A DNA stretch of 64,000 bases from Arsukibacterium sp. UBA5043 (GTDB taxonomy: Bacteria > Pseudomonadota > Gammaproteobacteria > Enterobacterales > Alteromonadaceae). Both the position numbers and the translations under genes were made by a program. Below, piece after piece: positions 57,120-64,000 of the stretch (the first letter of the stretch is position 1; the number at the start of each line of letters is the position of its first letter). The stretch lies in contig DIBV01000017.1 of NCBI GenBank assembly GCA_002415085.1, forward strand, positions 173,490-237,489, written 5' to 3'. The notes beneath the pieces were generated by a model. The model saw nothing but the letters and a program-made list of their open reading frames with translations. It was not told where the DNA came from and did no database searches.

Positions 57120-58445
57120 ATGACACTGTCACTCAAGCTACGCCAGGGCTTGGTTAGCATTGTATTGTTGCTACTGCTATTGCCGAGCTCTTTTATTGCG
57201 ATTGATCAGGCGTTTTTTACCCAACTTCTGACCAGCGCCGAGCAAAAGCTTGAAGTGCATATGTATGCCATGCTCTCTGATTTGAAAATTATCGATGGCA
57301 AAATTGAACTGAGTAATAACACCTTATCACCAGACTTCTTCCGGCCCGACTCTGGTTTAAGTGCTTATGTTACCAGTGTTGACCACACCAATACCGATCA
57401 AATAGTTTGGCAATCAGATTCGTCATTAAGCCAGAATTTTACCCCGCCGGATACTAATCTGGTGCCGGGTGAGCATTCATTTTATTCGTATACCAGCGCT
57501 AATCAGGAATACTGGCTGTTAAGTATTGCGTTGCTGTTTGATTCGGGAGAACAAACCCGACCGCTAGCGATACATATTGTGCAAACTGATGCCATGTTGC
57601 GCGCGCCTTACCTCAGCTTTCGCAATACGTTACTCAGCTGGTTTATCTGGATCGGTGCTGCACTGGTAATATTAAGTATCCTGGCGTATTACTGGACAAC
57701 TAAGCCACTGAGTAAGCTAGATCAGGAGATTCGTAAATTAGAGGGCGGCGAGCAGGATCATCTGAATGGTCAGTACCCGGTAGAGCTAACCAATATTAAA
57801 GAAGACTTAAACTTGCTGCTGGCGAATCAAAACCGGCAAAAACAGCGGTATCGCAACCACCTCAGTGATCTGGCCCATGCATTAAAAACCCCGGTAGCCG
57901 TGCTTAAAACCTCAGTGCTAAGTGAGCAACCGGAGTTAAAAGAGCAACTTGACCGGATCAGTGCCATGATCGAACATCAACTGAAGCGAGCCAGTAGCTC
58001 TGGTCAGGATATCTGGAAAAAGCAATTTGATATCCTGCCTCATGTAGACAAACTGTGTAATGCTTTGCAAAAAATTTACCGGGATAAAGATTTACATATT
58101 CAAATTGAATGTGCCGATAATGCAACATTCCGCGGCGATGAAACGGACTTAATGGAAATTCTGGGCAATTTACTGGATAACGCCTGTAAAGCCTGTCAAC
58201 GCCAGGTAAAACTGACGGTTATTCAGAATCCACTCAATTTAATTGTTGAAGACGATGGTCCGGGAATTGCCAAAGAAGCCAGGAAAAAACTGTTTGCACG
58301 TGGCACCCGACTTGATACCTATAAAGATGGGCATGGTGTTGGACTTTCTATTGTCGCCGAATTAGTCTCTTCTTATTCCGGCGGCATGCAAATTACCGAC
58401 AGCCCATTGGGTGGCGCCCGTTTTGAACTTATTTTTCCAGAATAA
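57120..58445 (+). CDS. Sensor histidine kinase (PhoQ-like)
   Basis: The 441-residue protein has two membrane helices (about 10-30 and 170-192) around a periplasmic sensor of about 140 residues, then a HAMP-like linker. The H-box is L-A-H-A-L-K-T-P with His253. The ATPase domain has L-G-N-L-L-D-N-A-C-K-A, E-D-D-G-P-G-I and G-H-G-V-G-L-S-I. The architecture and A-H-A-L-K-T-P box resemble PhoQ. The periplasmic domain lacks an obvious acidic patch, so magnesium sensing is not assured. It is the last gene of the operon. Confidence 0.9.
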   Translation: MTLSLKLRQGLVSIVLLLLLLPSSFIAIDQAFFTQLLTSAEQKLEVHMYAMLSDLKIIDGKIELSNNTLSPDFFRPDSGLSAYVTSVDHTNTDQIVWQSDSSLSQNFTPPDTNLVPGEHSFYSYTSANQEYWLLSIALLFDSGEQTRPLAIHIVQTDAMLRAPYLSFRNTLLSWFIWIGAALVILSILAYYWTTKPLSKLDQEIRKLEGGEQDHLNGQYPVELTNIKEDLNLLLANQNRQKQRYRNHLSDLAHALKTPVAVLKTSVLSEQPELKEQLDRISAMIEHQLKRASSSGQDIWKKQFDILPHVDKLCNALQKIYRDKDLHIQIECADNATFRGDETDLMEILGNLLDNACKACQRQVKLTVIQNPLNLIVEDDGPGIAKEARKKLFARGTRLDTYKDGHGVGLSIVAELVSSYSGGMQITDSPLGGARFELIFPE

Positions 58446-58535
58446 CCATCATGGCAAGGGTTTAAGCTGAATAATCACTGATCGCCCCGCTATTTCCTAC
58501 CGTAAGCTTTAAAAATATTCTGAGGAACAGCTTTT

Positions 58536-58898
58536 ATGGAACTTAACCCGGCAACAATTAAAATTAAAAACCTGCGTTTACGAACTTTCATCGGCATCAA
58601 AGACGACGAAATTAATAATAAACAGGACGTCATCATTAACGCCAGGATCCAGTACAGCGCTAACAATGCCGCCAACAGCGATGACATGAATAACGCCCTT
58701 AATTATCGTACGATTACCAAGCAAATTATTGAGCTGGTTGAGATGAATCGCTTTAGTCTGCTAGAAAAGTTAACGGCAGATGTGTTAGCGCTTGCCAGTG
58801 CCCATCCGGCAGTGCGCTTCGCTGAAGTAGAAATCGATAAGCCCCATGCGTTACGATTTGCTGACTCTGTGTCACTTACCCTGTCGGTAAACAAATAA
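58536..58898 (+). CDS. folX: Dihydroneopterin triphosphate 2'-epimerase FolX
   Basis: The 120-residue product is collinear with E. coli Fol[36 protein letters not shown] and F-S-L-L-E-K-L-T. It epimerises dihydroneopterin triphosphate to the monapterin form, a step toward tetrahydromonapterin. It is a homo-octamer-type tunnelling fold protein. It is followed by yfcH, the same order as in E. coli. Confidence 0.94.
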
Positions 58899-58957
58899 TC
58901 AAACAGACCATAGTCCGCTATACTTAGCGGCAACGGGCAAACGGACAGGAGCATTTC

Positions 58958-59848
58958 ATGCGTATTTTAGTTACTGGTGGAACAGGCTTAATAGGTTCTG
59001 CATTGCTTAAATACTGGCGTGATCAACATCAGATAACAGTGTTAACCCGCCAACCTGTTGCCCGTTTGCAACAAACTTCAGCCATTAATTATGTAAATAG
59101 CCTGAAAGACATCGACTTTAACCAGCTAGATGCAATCGTTAATCTGGCTGGGGAACCTATAGCTGACAAAAGATGGACAGAAAAACAGAAGCACCGTATT
59201 TGCCAGAGCCGCTGGCACCTTACCGAGCAGCTTACCGAATGCATTCTGGCGGCATCAACACCGCCTTCATGCCTGATTAATGGCTCAGCTGTCGGCTATT
59301 ATGGCCGCCAGGGTAGTGAATTTATCTGTGAGGAACACAGCGCTTTTTATCCGGAGTTTAGCCACGACATCTGTGCCCGCTGGGAAAATATCGCCCTCCA
59401 GGCAGCCAGCGAGAAAACCCGGGTGTGTCTGCTGCGCACAGGTATCGTGTTATCTGATCAGGGTGGTGCACTGAAAAAAATGCTGCCGGCGTTTCGGTTT
59501 GGCCTGGGCGGCCCACTGGGCAGCGGCCAACAATACATGTCTTGGATCCACATTGATGACATCGTAAAGTTGATAGACTTTCTATTGCACTCTCCTACTC
59601 TGCAGGGGCCGTTCAATGCGGTCGCCCCCAAAGCCGTTACCAACAAGCAATTCAGTCAGGCATTGGCAGAACGGTTAAACCGACCGGCGAAACTCACGAT
59701 GCCGGCTTTTATATTGCGGCTGATGTTTGGTGAAATGGCAGATATTCTGTTGTTCGGACAACGCGTCGTACCGCAACAAGCCCTGGATGCAGGTTTTAAA
59801 TTTCAGTATCCTAAGCTGCCAGCAGCGCTGGCAGACTTAGACATTTAA
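58958..59848 (+). CDS. yfcH: TIGR01777-family NAD(P)-dependent epimerase YfcH
   Basis: The 296-residue protein has the extended SDR Rossmann motif T-G-G-T-G-L-I-G at 6-13, N-L-A-G-E-P-I near residue 67, and the conserved S-A-V-G-Y-Y-G active-site tyrosine segment. It then has S-W-I-H-I-D-D and the C-terminal DUF1731 region. The reaction is not established. Location after folX is conserved in E. coli and may mean a pterin-related job. The start has ACAGGAG upstream. Confidence 0.9.
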   Translation: MRILVTGGTGLIGSALLKYWRDQHQITVLTRQPVARLQQTSAINYVNSLKDIDFNQLDAIVNLAGEPIADKRWTEKQKHRICQSRWHLTEQLTECILAASTPPSCLINGSAVGYYGRQGSEFICEEHSAFYPEFSHDICARWENIALQAASEKTRVCLLRTGIVLSDQGGALKKMLPAFRFGLGGPLGSGQQYMSWIHIDDIVKLIDFLLHSPTLQGPFNAVAPKAVTNKQFSQALAERLNRPAKLTMPAFILRLMFGEMADILLFGQRVVPQQALDAGFKFQYPKLPAALADLDI

Positions 59849-59863
59849 CCGGTTACACGCGGG

Positions 59864-62350
59864 TTAGCTTTGAATAACGCGTCTGATGAGCACTGCGCCA
59901 GGGATCTGCAGTAACCGCCGCAGCTGCCACCAACCAAGCAAGCTTACCGACACTACGCCAATAGCCGGTCCCATCCACCACAACGCAAAATGAAACTGAA
60001 ACGGCATGTCAAACACCCGTTGCTGCAGTGTCATCAACAGCAATTCGGCCAGCACCGTGGCAAACAATCCTGCCAGGGCGCCCAGAAATGCAAACTCAAG
60101 TAACAGTGCATTGCGTAAAAAGACATATTTGGCACCCAGCGTCCGTAAAATTGCCAGTTCCTGCTCTCGTTGTTCCAGGGTAGCCTGAACCTGAGCGACC
60201 AGCACCAGAGCGGCCGCTAGCGCAATAATTACCAGAATAAAGCTCAGGGCAATCGTCACCTGAGCAATAATATCGTTAACCTGAGTTATGATAGCATCGA
60301 CACTAATAACCGTAACCGTGGGCATTTGCCGGGCTAACTGGTTTATCAGTTTGCCGCTGCCCTGCTCCAGATAAAAAGCAGTAATATACGTTGCCGGAAA
60401 AGTAGCCAGCACGTCAGGGCTCAATATCATATAGAAGTTTGGTTGCAGGCTATTCCAGTCAACCTGGCGGATACTGGTTACCGTTGCCGAGACCTGCTGT
60501 CCGCCAACGGAAAAGTCCAGCGTATCGCCAAGCGATAATTGTAAGCGCTCTGCTATTTCCTGCTCTACTGAGACTTCCGCCGCAGTATTGTCAGTAAACC
60601 ACTGTCCTTCAATAATTTTATTATTGGCTGGTATGTCAGCCAGCCAGGTGAGGTTTAACTCGCGGCCTACTCCAACCCGCTGTTCGCTCCGATCTTCTTT
60701 TGACGCTTCCTGCTGCAATTTTTCATCATTCACGGTAATCAACCGGCCCCGTACCACTGGATAAAAGGGTTCTGCCTGCAAATTATTTGTTTCAGTAAAC
60801 GCCGTAACCTGAGTTCGCTGCTGTGCACTGACATTAACTAAGAAATGGTTAGGAGCGCCCTCAGGAATTTGCTGTTGCCACTGGCCTATCAGTTCTGCCC
60901 TTAAAAAATACAGCAATAACGTCAGAAAAATTGCCAGGCTAAAGGTGATGAGCTGAAAACTGTTCGGCCACAATCTGCGGCGTAAATTTGCTAAAGCCAG
61001 GCGTCCGGCACTGCTCTGCCCTGCTGCCACCGGTCGTGCCAACTTCACCATCACCGCGGCAAAGCCCAGTAAAATACCAGCAAATAATGCGCAAAGTAAA
61101 AATAAGCCGACGCTAATCAATAACTCGCCACTAAACAGCCACATTAAGCCCCAGATAGCAGCTGCACCAAACAGCAGTTGCCATTTGTCCAGAACCATTG
61201 CCACAGCAGGTTGCTTTAATACTTCAATGGCTGGTGTTTTCGCCAGCTGCCATAAAGGTCGGGCCGCAAACAGCAGGGCGCAGATAATGCATGTCAGGGT
61301 GCCCAGTAGCAGTGGTCTGACACTGAACTCTGTCCGATAATCACTGATGTACTGGCTAATACCAAGCTCGGCAGCAAAAATTGCTAACTGACCACCTAAC
61401 AAGCCCAGCACCAGACTAAACAGTACCACCAAAAATAAATGGCTGCCGTAGAGCAGTCTGGCTCTTGCCGTGGTAGCACCCAGAGCTTTTATAATGGCGA
61501 CGGCCTGAGTATGACGCTGACTGTAGCGGCTGGCTGCCACAGCGGCGGCACAAGCGGCTAATACGATACCCAACAGACCCGCAAGCAATAAAAAGCGCTC
61601 AGCACGCTCCAGAGCGCTGCCGATAGCAGATTCACGATCCAGGTTACGCCAGCGCTGATGAACACTGAGCATGGGTTGCAGTTGCGCTGCCAGTTCATCT
61701 AAAGCGCCAGTACTGCCAGCGAACAAATACCGGTAGCTAATCCGGCTGCCCGGCTGCACAATATTGCTGGCCGGCACATCAGCCAGGTGCATTATCACCC
61801 TTGGTGAACCACCAAACACACTCAGCGGCGCATCGGGTTCGTTGGCAATCACCCCGCCGACTACCAGCCGGGATTCGCCAAGTTCGATCGTATCACCGGG
61901 CTTAACTTGTAATAAATCCAGCAACCGGGTTTCAAACCATACTTCACCGGGCACCAACTGCGCAGTCGGGCCCGAGGTAATACTTGCCGAGCGGTGTAAT
62001 AGCAACTCTCCCCGCAGGGGATAAGCATCGTTGACAGCTTTAATGGTGGCAAGCTGCATTTGCTCGCCGGCAAACAACATGGAGTCAAATTGCATTTGGC
62101 GGGCTGTGGCCACATTAAGCTGGCTGGCCACAGCAAAAAAGTTTTCGTTAAACGGCTGACTTGACCCTAATACTCTGTCGGCGGCTGTAAACTGGGCGCT
62201 ACGTTGTTGCAATGCACTTTTCACGCTTTGAGTGATACCACTTAAACTGACAACAGAACCAACGGCCAGAAACAGGGCGAAGGCAATAACCCATAATTCC
62301 CCTCGTTTTAACTCACGCCAGAATAACCGACCTGCAATACTAGCCCACAT
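59864..62350 (-). CDS. ybbP: ABC transporter permease (YbbP-like)
   Basis: The ATG at 62350, with AGAGGA upstream, gives 828 residues. The protein has an N-terminal helix, two FtsX-type permease blocks, each with three helices, and extra central helices. A large periplasmic domain holds V-G-V-G-R-E-L-N-L-T-W, as in the YbbP/LolE-type macrolide-exporter-fold group. It pairs with the ATPase encoded just upstream, whose last 11 bases overlap its start. Substrate is unproven: YbbAP-TesA is thought to act on hydrophobic compounds in the membrane. A start 12 codons earlier lacks a ribosome-binding site. Confidence 0.9.
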   Translation of the reverse strand: MWASIAGRLFWRELKRGELWVIAFALFLAVGSVVSLSGITQSVKSALQQRSAQFTAADRVLGSSQPFNENFFAVASQLNVATARQMQFDSMLFAGEQMQLATIKAVNDAYPLRGELLLHRSASITSGPTAQLVPGEVWFETRLLDLLQVKPGDTIELGESRLVVGGVIANEPDAPLSVFGGSPRVIMHLADVPASNIVQPGSRISYRYLFAGSTGALDELAAQLQPMLSVHQRWRNLDRESAIGSALERAERFLLLAGLLGIVLAACAAAVAASRYSQRHTQAVAIIKALGATTARARLLYGSHLFLVVLFSLVLGLLGGQLAIFAAELGISQYISDYRTEFSVRPLLLGTLTCIICALLFAARPLWQLAKTPAIEVLKQPAVAMVLDKWQLLFGAAAIWGLMWLFSGELLISVGLFLLCALFAGILLGFAAVMVKLARPVAAGQSSAGRLALANLRRRLWPNSFQLITFSLAIFLTLLLYFLRAELIGQWQQQIPEGAPNHFLVNVSAQQRTQVTAFTETNNLQAEPFYPVVRGRLITVNDEKLQQEASKEDRSEQRVGVGRELNLTWLADIPANNKIIEGQWFTDNTAAEVSVEQEIAERLQLSLGDTLDFSVGGQQVSATVTSIRQVDWNSLQPNFYMILSPDVLATFPATYITAFYLEQGSGKLINQLARQMPTVTVISVDAIITQVNDIIAQVTIALSFILVIIALAAALVLVAQVQATLEQREQELAILRTLGAKYVFLRNALLLEFAFLGALAGLFATVLAELLLMTLQQRVFDMPFQFHFALWWMGPAIGVVSVSLLGWWQLRRLLQIPGAVLIRRVIQS

Positions 62351-63056
62351 TTGCTGTATCCTCTGCTGACGGTTCTGGCACAACAAAACGACCAGAGCGC
62401 ATTTGATACTGACGCTGACAACGCTTCGCTAACTCAGCATTATGGGTTACCAGCACCAATGTCGTGCCCTGGCTGTTGTTCAGCTCGAATAATAAGTCTT
62501 CAATCATTCTGCCCGTTACCGCATCCAGATTGGCTGATGGCTCATCAGCGAACAAAATGGCAGGTCGGGTAATAAACGCACGGGCAATAGCAACCCGTTG
62601 TTGTTCACCACCGGACAATTGTGCTGGAAAAAAATCTGCCCTGGCACTCAGTCCCACCTGCTCCAGCAATTCCAGCCCTCTTTCACGGGCTTTGCGATCA
62701 CCAGATAGCTCAGCAGGCAACGTTACATTCTCTAATGCCGTCAGACTGGGCAATAGCAAAAATGACTGGAACACAAAACCCACGTCACTGGCTCTGACCC
62801 CTGCCCGTTCATCTTCAGACATGTTATGCAGGGGGTGGCCCGCCATGTCAATTTCACCTGAGCTAGGCGTATCCAATCCGGCCAGCAAGCTAAGCAAGGT
62901 CGACTTGCCTGAACCTGATGCGCCTACTATTGCTACGGTTTCGCCCCGATTGATTGTCAGACTAATATCATGCAGGATAGTCAGTGATCCTTCTGGGACC
63001 TTGACACGTTTTGCAAGGTTTGTTGCTTTTATATGTAATTCAGGTGTGTTATTCAT
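62340..63056 (-). CDS. ybbA: ABC transporter ATP-binding protein YbbA
   Basis: The 238-residue ATPase has Walker A G-A-S-G-S-G-K-S-T, Q-loop F-V-F-Q-S-F-L-L-L, signature L-S-G-G-E-Q-Q-R-V-A-I-A, Walker B A-I-L-F-A-D-E-P-S-A-N-L-D and the switch V-T-H-N. It is of the MacB/LolD type. It powers the YbbP permease encoded downstream. Its ATG (63054-63056) and the tesA ATG (63055-63057) occupy the same CATG on opposite strands. The divergent ybbA/tesA order is the one found in E. coli. Confidence 0.95.
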   Translation of the reverse strand: MNNTPELHIKATNLAKRVKVPEGSLTILHDISLTINRGETVAIVGASGSGKSTLLSLLAGLDTPSSGEIDMAGHPLHNMSEDERAGVRASDVGFVFQSFLLLPSLTALENVTLPAELSGDRKARERGLELLEQVGLSARADFFPAQLSGGEQQRVAIARAFITRPAILFADEPSANLDAVTGRMIEDLLFELNNSQGTTLVLVTHNAELAKRCQRQYQMRSGRFVVPEPSAEDTANVG

Positions 63057-63642
63057 GCGTATCGTCTTATTGTTGTTAATCAGTTTAGCCAGTCATTTTG
63101 CTTATGCTGACAAGTTACTCATTCTGGGTGATAGCTTAAGTGCTGCTTACGGTATGCAGCAACATCAGGGTTGGCCGGCGCTACTCCAAAAAAATACGGA
63201 ATGGCAGCTTATTAACGCCAGTATCAGCGGTGAAACCACCTCAGGGGGGCTGGCAAGACTGCCAGCACTGTTAGCCGAGCATAAACCAGATGCTGTGCTG
63301 ATAGAACTGGGTGGTAACGATGGCCTGCGAGGCTTTTCGGTAGAGCTCATCCAGGCAAACCTGAGTAAAATCATTACACTGGTCAAGCAGCATAATGCGC
63401 AGCCGGTATTAATGCAAATACGGATCCCACCTAACTATGGACCACGCTATGTCAGACAATTTACTGTAGTTTACCCGCAGCTTGCAGAAAAACATGCCAT
63501 AACCCTATGGCCATTCTTTATGGATAGTATTGCGATCAATAGTGAACTAATAATGGCAGATGGTATTCATCCCAATGCAGCAGCACAGCCGATGATAAGC
63601 GAATTTATGGCGGATTTACTAAAGGAATTGCCATCGAAATAG
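63055..63642 (+). CDS. tesA: Multifunctional acyl-CoA thioesterase I/protease I/lysophospholipase TesA
   Basis: The 195-residue SGNH hydrolase has a signal peptide (cleavage near A-Y-A-D) and all blocks: L-G-D-S27-L-S, G-G62-64 region, G-G-N-D with Asn88, and D169-G-I-H172-P. It hydrolyses acyl thioesters and lysophospholipids in the periplasm. The ATG at 63055 is chosen because the frame further upstream runs antisense through ybbA. It shares its start region with ybbA. Confidence 0.94.
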   Translation: MRIVLLLLISLASHFAYADKLLILGDSLSAAYGMQQHQGWPALLQKNTEWQLINASISGETTSGGLARLPALLAEHKPDAVLIELGGNDGLRGFSVELIQANLSKIITLVKQHNAQPVLMQIRIPPNYGPRYVRQFTVVYPQLAEKHAITLWPFFMDSIAINSELIMADGIHPNAAAQPMISEFMADLLKELPSK

Positions 63643-63735
63643 CATAAGATCAGCTGATTACGCAACCGCAACCATACCGAATAAAAACATAAATTATTAG
63701 TGGTTCAAGCAGGAATAAAACAACTTTGGCAGGAA

Positions 63736-63859
63736 TGGCGTCCCCTAGGGGATTCTAACCCCTGTTACCGCCGTGCCAAAGTGTTTAGCGCGGTGTCATG
63801 ACACCGCCATCACGGCGTTAAAGCTAGTCAGTTGGGAATCATTGGCATTGAAAACAGAA
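63736..63859 (-). repeat. 124-bp tRNA-Glu-derived tandem repeat, unit 1
   Basis: Read on the minus strand, the unit ends with 40 bases (63775 to 63736) that match the 3' end of tRNA-Glu, including CCA, except for one change in the T-loop (TTCGAAT to TTAGAAT). Before it lies a two-stem structure: 63790-63797 pairs with 63800-63807 over 8 bp, and 63769-63775 pairs with 63811-63817. The 5' acceptor strand GTCCCCT is missing, so it is not a functional tRNA. It differs from unit 2 at 5 of 124 positions. Confidence 0.85.
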
Positions 63860-63983
63860 TGGCGTCCCCTAGGGGATTCGAACCCCTGTTACCGCCGTGC
63901 CAAAGTGTTTAGCGCGGTGTCCTGACACCGCCATCACGGCGATAAAAGTAGTCAGTTGGGAATCATTGGCATTGAAAACAGAA
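63860..63983 (-). repeat. 124-bp tRNA-Glu-derived tandem repeat, unit 2
   Basis: This unit directly abuts unit 1 and has the same length. Its last 40 bases on the minus strand (63899 to 63860) agree fully with the E. coli tRNA-Glu 3' half as I recall it: anticodon-stem 3' strand, variable loop, canonical T-arm, acceptor 3' strand and CCA. CAGGACACCGC further upstream also matches the D-arm/anticodon-stem part of tRNA-Glu, but the anticodon loop is enlarged and the 5' acceptor strand is absent. The inner hairpin loop differs from unit 1, while its stem is conserved. Confidence 0.85.
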
Positions 63984-64000
63984 TGGCGTCCCCTAGGGGA
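63984..64000 (-). repeat. Start of a third copy: either another repeat unit or the genuine tRNA-Glu 3' end
   Basis: Seventeen bases identical to the beginning of units 1 and 2 (CCA end and acceptor strand of tRNA-Glu, minus strand) are cut by the window edge. The 124-bp period is kept exactly. Whether an intact tRNA-Glu gene follows cannot be seen. Confidence 0.7.

Follow-up and report, generated by a model that had tools for sequence, protein, structure and literature searches.

Tandem repeat units built from antisense and sense pieces of tRNA-Glu downstream of tRNA genes in Arsukibacterium and related genera

The window analysed here, a stretch of 64,000 nt from Arsukibacterium sp. UBA5043, ends in tandem 124-nt units that read on the minus strand (Table 1). 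Tandem Repeats Finder delimited the repeat to 63733-64000 with a period of 124, 2.2 copies, and 96% matches, which bears out the exact 124-base tandem period proposed in an earlier, sequence-only reading of this DNA. The five differences named there between the two complete units were also recovered at 96% identity over 124 nt, and they include the hairpin loop (AG / AT) and the T-loop (TTCGA / TTAGA). From CACGGCGG to the CCA, unit 2 equals tRNA-Glu exactly and unit 1 nearly so. As had been described, the units end in tRNA-Glu 3' sequence up to and including the CCA, lack the 5' acceptor strand, and have an enlarged anticodon loop. tRNA gene calling gave none there, and the units are not functional tRNA genes in the sense of a complete cloverleaf with a 5' acceptor strand. 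The last 17 nt of the window had been taken for the start of a third unit. These nucleotides do match a tRNA-Glu 3' end, but they may close either a genuine tRNA-Glu gene or another unit; the former is possible because a tRNA-Glu starts beyond the adjoining gap and 17 relatives have a complete tRNA-Glu ahead of their units.

Table 1. Features of the repeat units at the end of the window
Feature	Position	Strand	Remark
tRNA-Glu 3' end, 17 nt	63984..64000	-	328 N directly after position 64000
Unit 2, 124 nt: spacer, antisense anticodon arm, altered sense anticodon arm, T-arm, acceptor 3' strand, CCA	63860..63983	-	
Unit 2, antisense copy of tRNA-Glu, anticodon arm to variable loop	63924..63948	-	antisense score 16.5 versus sense 6.5
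Unit 2, conserved ACACCGCGC; tRNA-Glu counterpart ACACCGCCC	63912..63920	-	
Unit 2, 12-nt TAAACACTTTGG replacing 3 nt (TTT) of tRNA-Glu and enlarging the anticodon loop	63900..63911	-	
Unit 2, tRNA-Glu 3' part, 40 nt identical	63860..63899	-	
Unit 1, 124 nt, T-loop mutated (TTAGA)	63736..63859	-	96% identical to unit 2
Unit 1, tRNA-Glu anticodon arm in antisense	63800..63823	-	read by analogy with unit 2
Unit 1, conserved ACACCGCGC	63788..63796	-	
Unit 1, tRNA-Glu 3' part, 39/40 nt (T-loop C to A)	63736..63775	-	

Extension of the contig past position 64000, which the sequence-only reading had proposed as a check, led across the gap to the 5'-terminal 22 nt of a tRNA-Glu and, further upstream on the minus strand, a complete tRNA-Ala(GGC). 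The tRNA-Ala is preceded by a promoter-like site, TTGACA-17-TAGAAT (11/12); such sites were not in excess in the scanned stretch (2 versus 2.3 in shuffles). A convergent GDSL lipase gene ends 93 nt past unit 1 and is followed by genes for an ABC ATPase and an FtsX-type permease, while an AAA ATPase gene and polysaccharide-export genes lie on the far side of the tRNAs. The nearest terminator-like sites 3' of unit 1 on the same strand are found within the lipase gene, more than 200 nt on (positions 2001 and 1887 of the extended locus, L003). A perfect 9-bp inverted repeat at 63723-63731 / 63774-63782 (TGCCAAAGT/ACTTTGGCA) joins unit 1 with the adjoining T-rich stretch; it may have arisen by chance or act as a weak terminator. 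Over 10 kb of L003, the gathering score of an Rfam family was reached by the tRNA-Ala only, and window positions 62900-64000 gave only three sub-threshold Rfam matches (E 3.6-7.3).

A new feature, missed in the sequence-only reading, is that the 5' part of the unit holds the tRNA-Glu anticodon arm in antisense. This part corresponds, in reverse complement, to the stretch of tRNA-Glu that runs from the D-stem 3' strand across the anticodon arm as far as the variable loop, with the anticodon shortened. In each of seven unit pieces tested, 0/2000 shuffles reached the antisense score, so the relation is not due to chance. The antisense part is followed by a sense copy of tRNA-Glu that starts from GACACCGC, with CGCGC replacing CGCCC. 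In the units compared, 10-12 nt stand where tRNA-Glu has TTT, and the 40 nt from CACGGCGG onward are again tRNA-Glu. The T-arm or the acceptor part is lost or damaged in several units. At three loci (L066, L068, and L073) a second unit subtype was seen that has no antisense half and keeps ACACCGCGC, by eye in hairpins with differing stems.

This build bears on the proposal that the units are decayed tandem tRNA-Glu genes (76 + 48 = 124). The 3' 40 nt of the unit equal tRNA-Glu and complete tRNA-Glu genes do repeat tandemly in these operons, but the 5' part is antisense rather than decayed sense sequence, the derived changes are common to the units, and the period varies by genome. As decay would leave the antisense half and the shared derived changes unexplained, we consider this origin very unlikely.

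A DNA search of 196 family genomes revealed the core of the unit in several genera, along with ordinary tRNA-Glu matches in most genomes. A covariance model of the core, built from 12 units, gave matches in 25/395 family genomes at E up to 0.1, and the unit itself was found in 21 of the 395, the genomes with strong matches (best E at most 6.1e-9). The stretches inspected behind the weak matches (E 0.028-0.075; G309, G138, G250, and G272) hold no unit. The strong matches span four genera, with 10/31 genomes in the genus of the window and 8/17, 2/6, and 1/19 in the others. Upstream of the units, 17 of the 21 genomes carry an intact tRNA-Glu; in the remaining four (the window's own genome, G042, G110, and G349), runs of N or contig ends interrupt the sequence beside tRNA-Glu-like sequence. 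Thus both an upstream tRNA-Glu and conservation in relatives were found, the joint absence of which had been named beforehand as the result that would refute the sequence-only reading. Draws from the order (1/394 genomes) and from the class (1/321) returned the window's own genome only, under a strict filter by which weak relatives may be missed. A pattern scan of named genomes yielded 24 stretches, 20 of which lie in Alishewanella, Arsukibacterium, Rheinheimera, Alkalimonas, Aliidiomarina, and an Idiomarina MAG. The pattern matches in Tamaricihabitans, a Clostridia MAG, an Opitutales MAG, and Mycobacterium were taken as chance, their 8-kb loci being without tRNA. Searches among open-licence PMC papers, a scope outside which most subscription papers fall, gave no description of the unit.

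The units stand in tandem downstream of a tRNA gene, in the window's own genome across the gap as well as in relatives, some of which have a single unit. They occur back to back or alternate with complete tRNA-Glu genes (L034 and L035), and both their copy number and their period vary between genomes. Broken remnants were found at L047, L051, and L038; together with the patchy presence within genera, they indicate that the unit is dispensable. Two further elements were noticed between tRNA-Glu copies. At L041, L045, and L052 another conserved spacer, CGCGTCACAGTC..AATACTGTGAAATAGGCTG, recurs between tandem tRNA-Glu genes, and Rfam gave no match over it at E up to 0.05. At L043:1126-1250, a match to RF02818 (Vibrio RNA AS5) reached 39 bits, below the gathering score of 96.

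Strong matches were seen at tRNA-Glu loci only and in no other context. An earlier suggestion was that the units are by-products of integration, that is, a trace left by an integrative element that used a tRNA 3' end as its target. tRNA 3' ends are frequent integration sites and the repeat is such an end, yet a Pfam scan for recombinase or integrase families found none among 10 neighbouring proteins (seven of L003 and three of window positions 57120-62386). With this result and the lack of strong matches in any other context, an integrative origin appears extremely unlikely.

For the comparison of sequences, 37 units were extracted with the anchors GCCG(T/C)GA or GCCGAGA plus ACACCGCGC, and 33 of them were used. 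Those left out are a near-duplicate (L005:217-275) and three units with a changed 3' side (L068:1305-1361, L069:1267-1327, and L073:1615-1672). The alignment comprised 30 of the 33, three units with an extra hairpin being excluded, and units without the antisense half (five rows) were excluded from all these counts. Twelve units from the Alishewanella/Alkalimonas side were compared with eight from the Aliidiomarina side, one of which comes from the fourth genus. Between these clades, the core GCCG...ACACCGCGC, through the exact anchors of which the compared units had been gathered, has a mean identity of 0.83 (shuffled 0.52). The 35 nt before the core have an identity of 0.48 (shuffled 0.47), which is the chance level; one of these spacers is partly N and that of L069 overlaps the preceding tRNA end. 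The comparison argues for a core under constraint while the spacer drifts. Moreover, the antisense half and the CGCGC persist though conversion by tRNA-Glu cannot restore them, from which purifying selection can be argued. Of the 40 model matches at E up to 0.0113, 38 were checked and 37 contain ACACCGCGC; the lone match without it is a partial unit running into a real tRNA-Glu. In the same 38 matches, GCCGnGA..GGCG lies inside the matched stretch in 34 and CACGGC in 30; these motif counts are not independent, since the model was trained on units already carrying the motifs. The ACACCGCGC strand is unchanged in the alignment although its pairing partner mismatches at one position in 7/30 units and at another in 10/30, which suggests that the sequence itself is kept, beyond its pairing.

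The 3' ends of the units follow the tRNA-Glu of their host. In G184, G253, and G241, the tRNA-Glu copies seen have a T-type acceptor (GTCCCCA..TGGGGAC), and 5/5 readable unit ends likewise. Fourteen other genomes in which the tRNA was seen have an A-type acceptor, with the T type in no readable unit end. A broken unit end at L126, where no host tRNA was seen, begins with CCCTTG. Recombination or conversion via the shared 40 nt would explain both the matching 3' ends and the changes in copy number.

The same process is central to the main rival explanation, according to which the units are a near-neutral by-product without a role: a fold-back duplication of tRNA-Glu whose further copies arose when tRNA-Glu 3' ends underwent unequal crossing-over. 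The patchy presence, the broken remnants, the variable copy number, the homogenisation of the 3' ends with tRNA-Glu, and the frequent damage to the T-arm or acceptor part are all in line with it. However, the antisense half, the CGCGC in place of CGCCC, and the shortened GUGA loop are kept across four genera and could not be supplied by conversion from tRNA-Glu, and the spacer adjoining the kept core stands at chance identity. We therefore regard a roleless by-product as a serious alternative that is nonetheless rather unlikely.

The predicted fold was analysed for the whole unit and its parts. The best fold of the whole 124-nt unit of the window is a three-way junction with a z-score of -1.98, and the 81-nt core has a z-score of -4.13; across 13 folded units, the values range from -4.13 to -0.61, with five below -2. 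Many of the other units also have the junction as their best fold. As a conserved fold, the three-way junction was rejected: the covariation of its closing helix was matched by 158/500 shuffles (30 distinct units), the covariation score of the whole junction was reached by 48/500, and 7/9 pairs of the closing helix fail in one or more sequences. A local hairpin, UAUCGCC-GUGA(N)-GGCGGUG, has 90% of its cells paired and a covariation of 0.175 versus 0.129 in shuffles, with 2/500 shuffles as high; one pair is changed on both sides, the score rests mainly on that pair, and the rows are related. RNAalifold selects the inner part of this hairpin, and the antisense stretch of unit 2 can form it with a GUGAU loop. 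The sequence-only reading had described an 8-bp hairpin with a 2-base loop; a hairpin is there, predicted with 7 bp and a 4-nt loop. The local hairpin outperforms the three-way junction as a candidate conserved fold, and the data lend it mild support, as related rows can beat shuffles without structure.

Folding was also applied to tRNA-Glu together with a following unit, because the free acceptor 3' strand of the unit might capture the 5' strand of the tRNA-Glu ahead of it and thereby control how that tRNA folds. The 5' acceptor strand was predicted to pair with AGGGGAC or UGGGGAC of the unit, instead of with its own partner strand, in 16/23 segments of tRNA-Glu plus unit. This behaviour is not specific to the unit, as the tRNA was predicted to lose its own acceptor stem in 21/23 unit segments but also in 29/29 Glu-Glu tandems and 15/15 segments with shuffled cores. 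The acceptor-strand swap was dropped as a mechanism for this reason, and control of tRNA-Glu folding by strand capture is quite improbable.

With moderate confidence, and judging from sequence comparison, we interpret the units as a repeat RNA that is derived from tRNA-Glu, specific to this lineage, and located in the 3' trailer of the tRNA-Ala/tRNA-Glu operon; it would work in the manner of the rtT RNA and have a constrained core. The units may have originated by snap-back template switching on tRNA-Glu, a fold-back duplication. Unequal recombination through the 40-nt direct repeat common to the unit and tRNA-Glu would have multiplied and homogenised the copies. The units would be transcribed from the tRNA promoter and excised by tRNA 3'-end processing enzymes. 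The core, with its short GNRA-type hairpin, ACACCGCGC, and altered anticodon arm, would be retained for the binding of a putative partner by the RNA, whether nascent or released. The simplest putative role is that of a pairing partner in the tRNA-Glu pathway or of a decoy, as the sequence-only reading had listed among its possibilities. More speculatively, the units could represent a new family of tRNA-trailer RNAs in which an antisense anticodon arm of the parent tRNA stands beside a sense decoy, and which, co-transcribed with tRNA-Glu, senses or adjusts its supply for translation or haem. Haem synthesis starts from Glu-tRNA. Such a function is a long shot; if it were true, the tRNA operons of this order would, taking rtT into account, often bear a second layer of regulatory RNA tagged with tRNA 3' ends.

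The resemblance to rtT, which the sequence-only reading had already suggested, holds for tandem trailer units ending in a tRNA 3' end and does not extend to a match with the rtT model. RF00391 gave no match to the unit up to E = 10 in window positions 62900-64000, and none in L034-L040, loci that carry the unit, up to E = 1. The model found rtT in 30/196 genomes of the family (six over the cut-off) and in 62/295 of the order (42 over the cut-off). The 20 best family loci of RF00391 were fetched (L084-L103), 19 of them with an upstream tRNA. At 14 of the 19, the 3'-terminal 18-19 nt of rtT are those of its own upstream tRNA (Lys, Ser, Glu, Tyr, or Arg). At L048, L049, L087, and L096, rtT lies in a tRNA-Ala/tRNA-Glu operon, the slot that the unit fills in other genera. 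Outside the window, the same genome holds an rtT-like element at L101 (G000:C1:754589-754721, minus strand; 37.1 bits, E 2.2e-5, cut-off 45). This element follows tRNA-Ser(gct)-Arg-Arg and ends with 19 nt of that tRNA-Arg, with a terminator-like hairpin, seen by eye, between the tRNA and rtT. Several rtT copies among L084-L103 are preceded by a terminator-like hairpin, and by eye a second copy of that hairpin follows rtT. At L048 and L049, the T-loop of tRNA-Glu copies passes into rtT-like sequence, as if tRNA-Glu and rtT had recombined at GTTCGA.

Other trailer-derived RNAs provide further comparisons. The sponge RNAs of 3' external transcribed spacers are tRNA trailer fragments acting on other RNAs, and a trailer fragment of the unit could likewise act on RNAs after processing. 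These sponges are not known to be copies of a tRNA, unlike the unit. Pseudo-tRNA repeats in a tRNA operon of Photobacterium are tandem partial tRNA copies in a gammaproteobacterium, like the unit; they involve other tRNAs and are not known to include an antisense arm.

The closest likeness is to rtT. Both are trailer repeats of tRNA operons ending in the 3' end of the upstream tRNA with CCA, and rtT is a structured RNA. The unit shares the end of about 19 nt taken from the upstream tRNA, these being included in its 40 nt. PMC4986893 describes the release of rtT as a stable RNA during tRNA processing, and background on its biology is also given in PMC7657543. The two differ in that the unit copies 40 nt of its tRNA, compared to 18-19 in rtT, and holds an antisense tRNA anticodon arm without an RF00391 covariance match. 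Whereas strong matches to the unit lie at tRNA-Glu loci only, rtT follows tRNA-Lys, Ser, Glu, Tyr, and Arg. The unit is thus of the same kind as rtT and a separate family, alike in position, in build, and, as we infer, in release. It adds to the little-studied rtT a second, unrelated element with a conserved RNA core tagged with a tRNA 3' end. A comparison can now be brought to the old question of whether trailer repeats are functional RNAs or recombination debris, and the antisense-plus-sense build may be read as the record of a new structured RNA arising from a tRNA gene.
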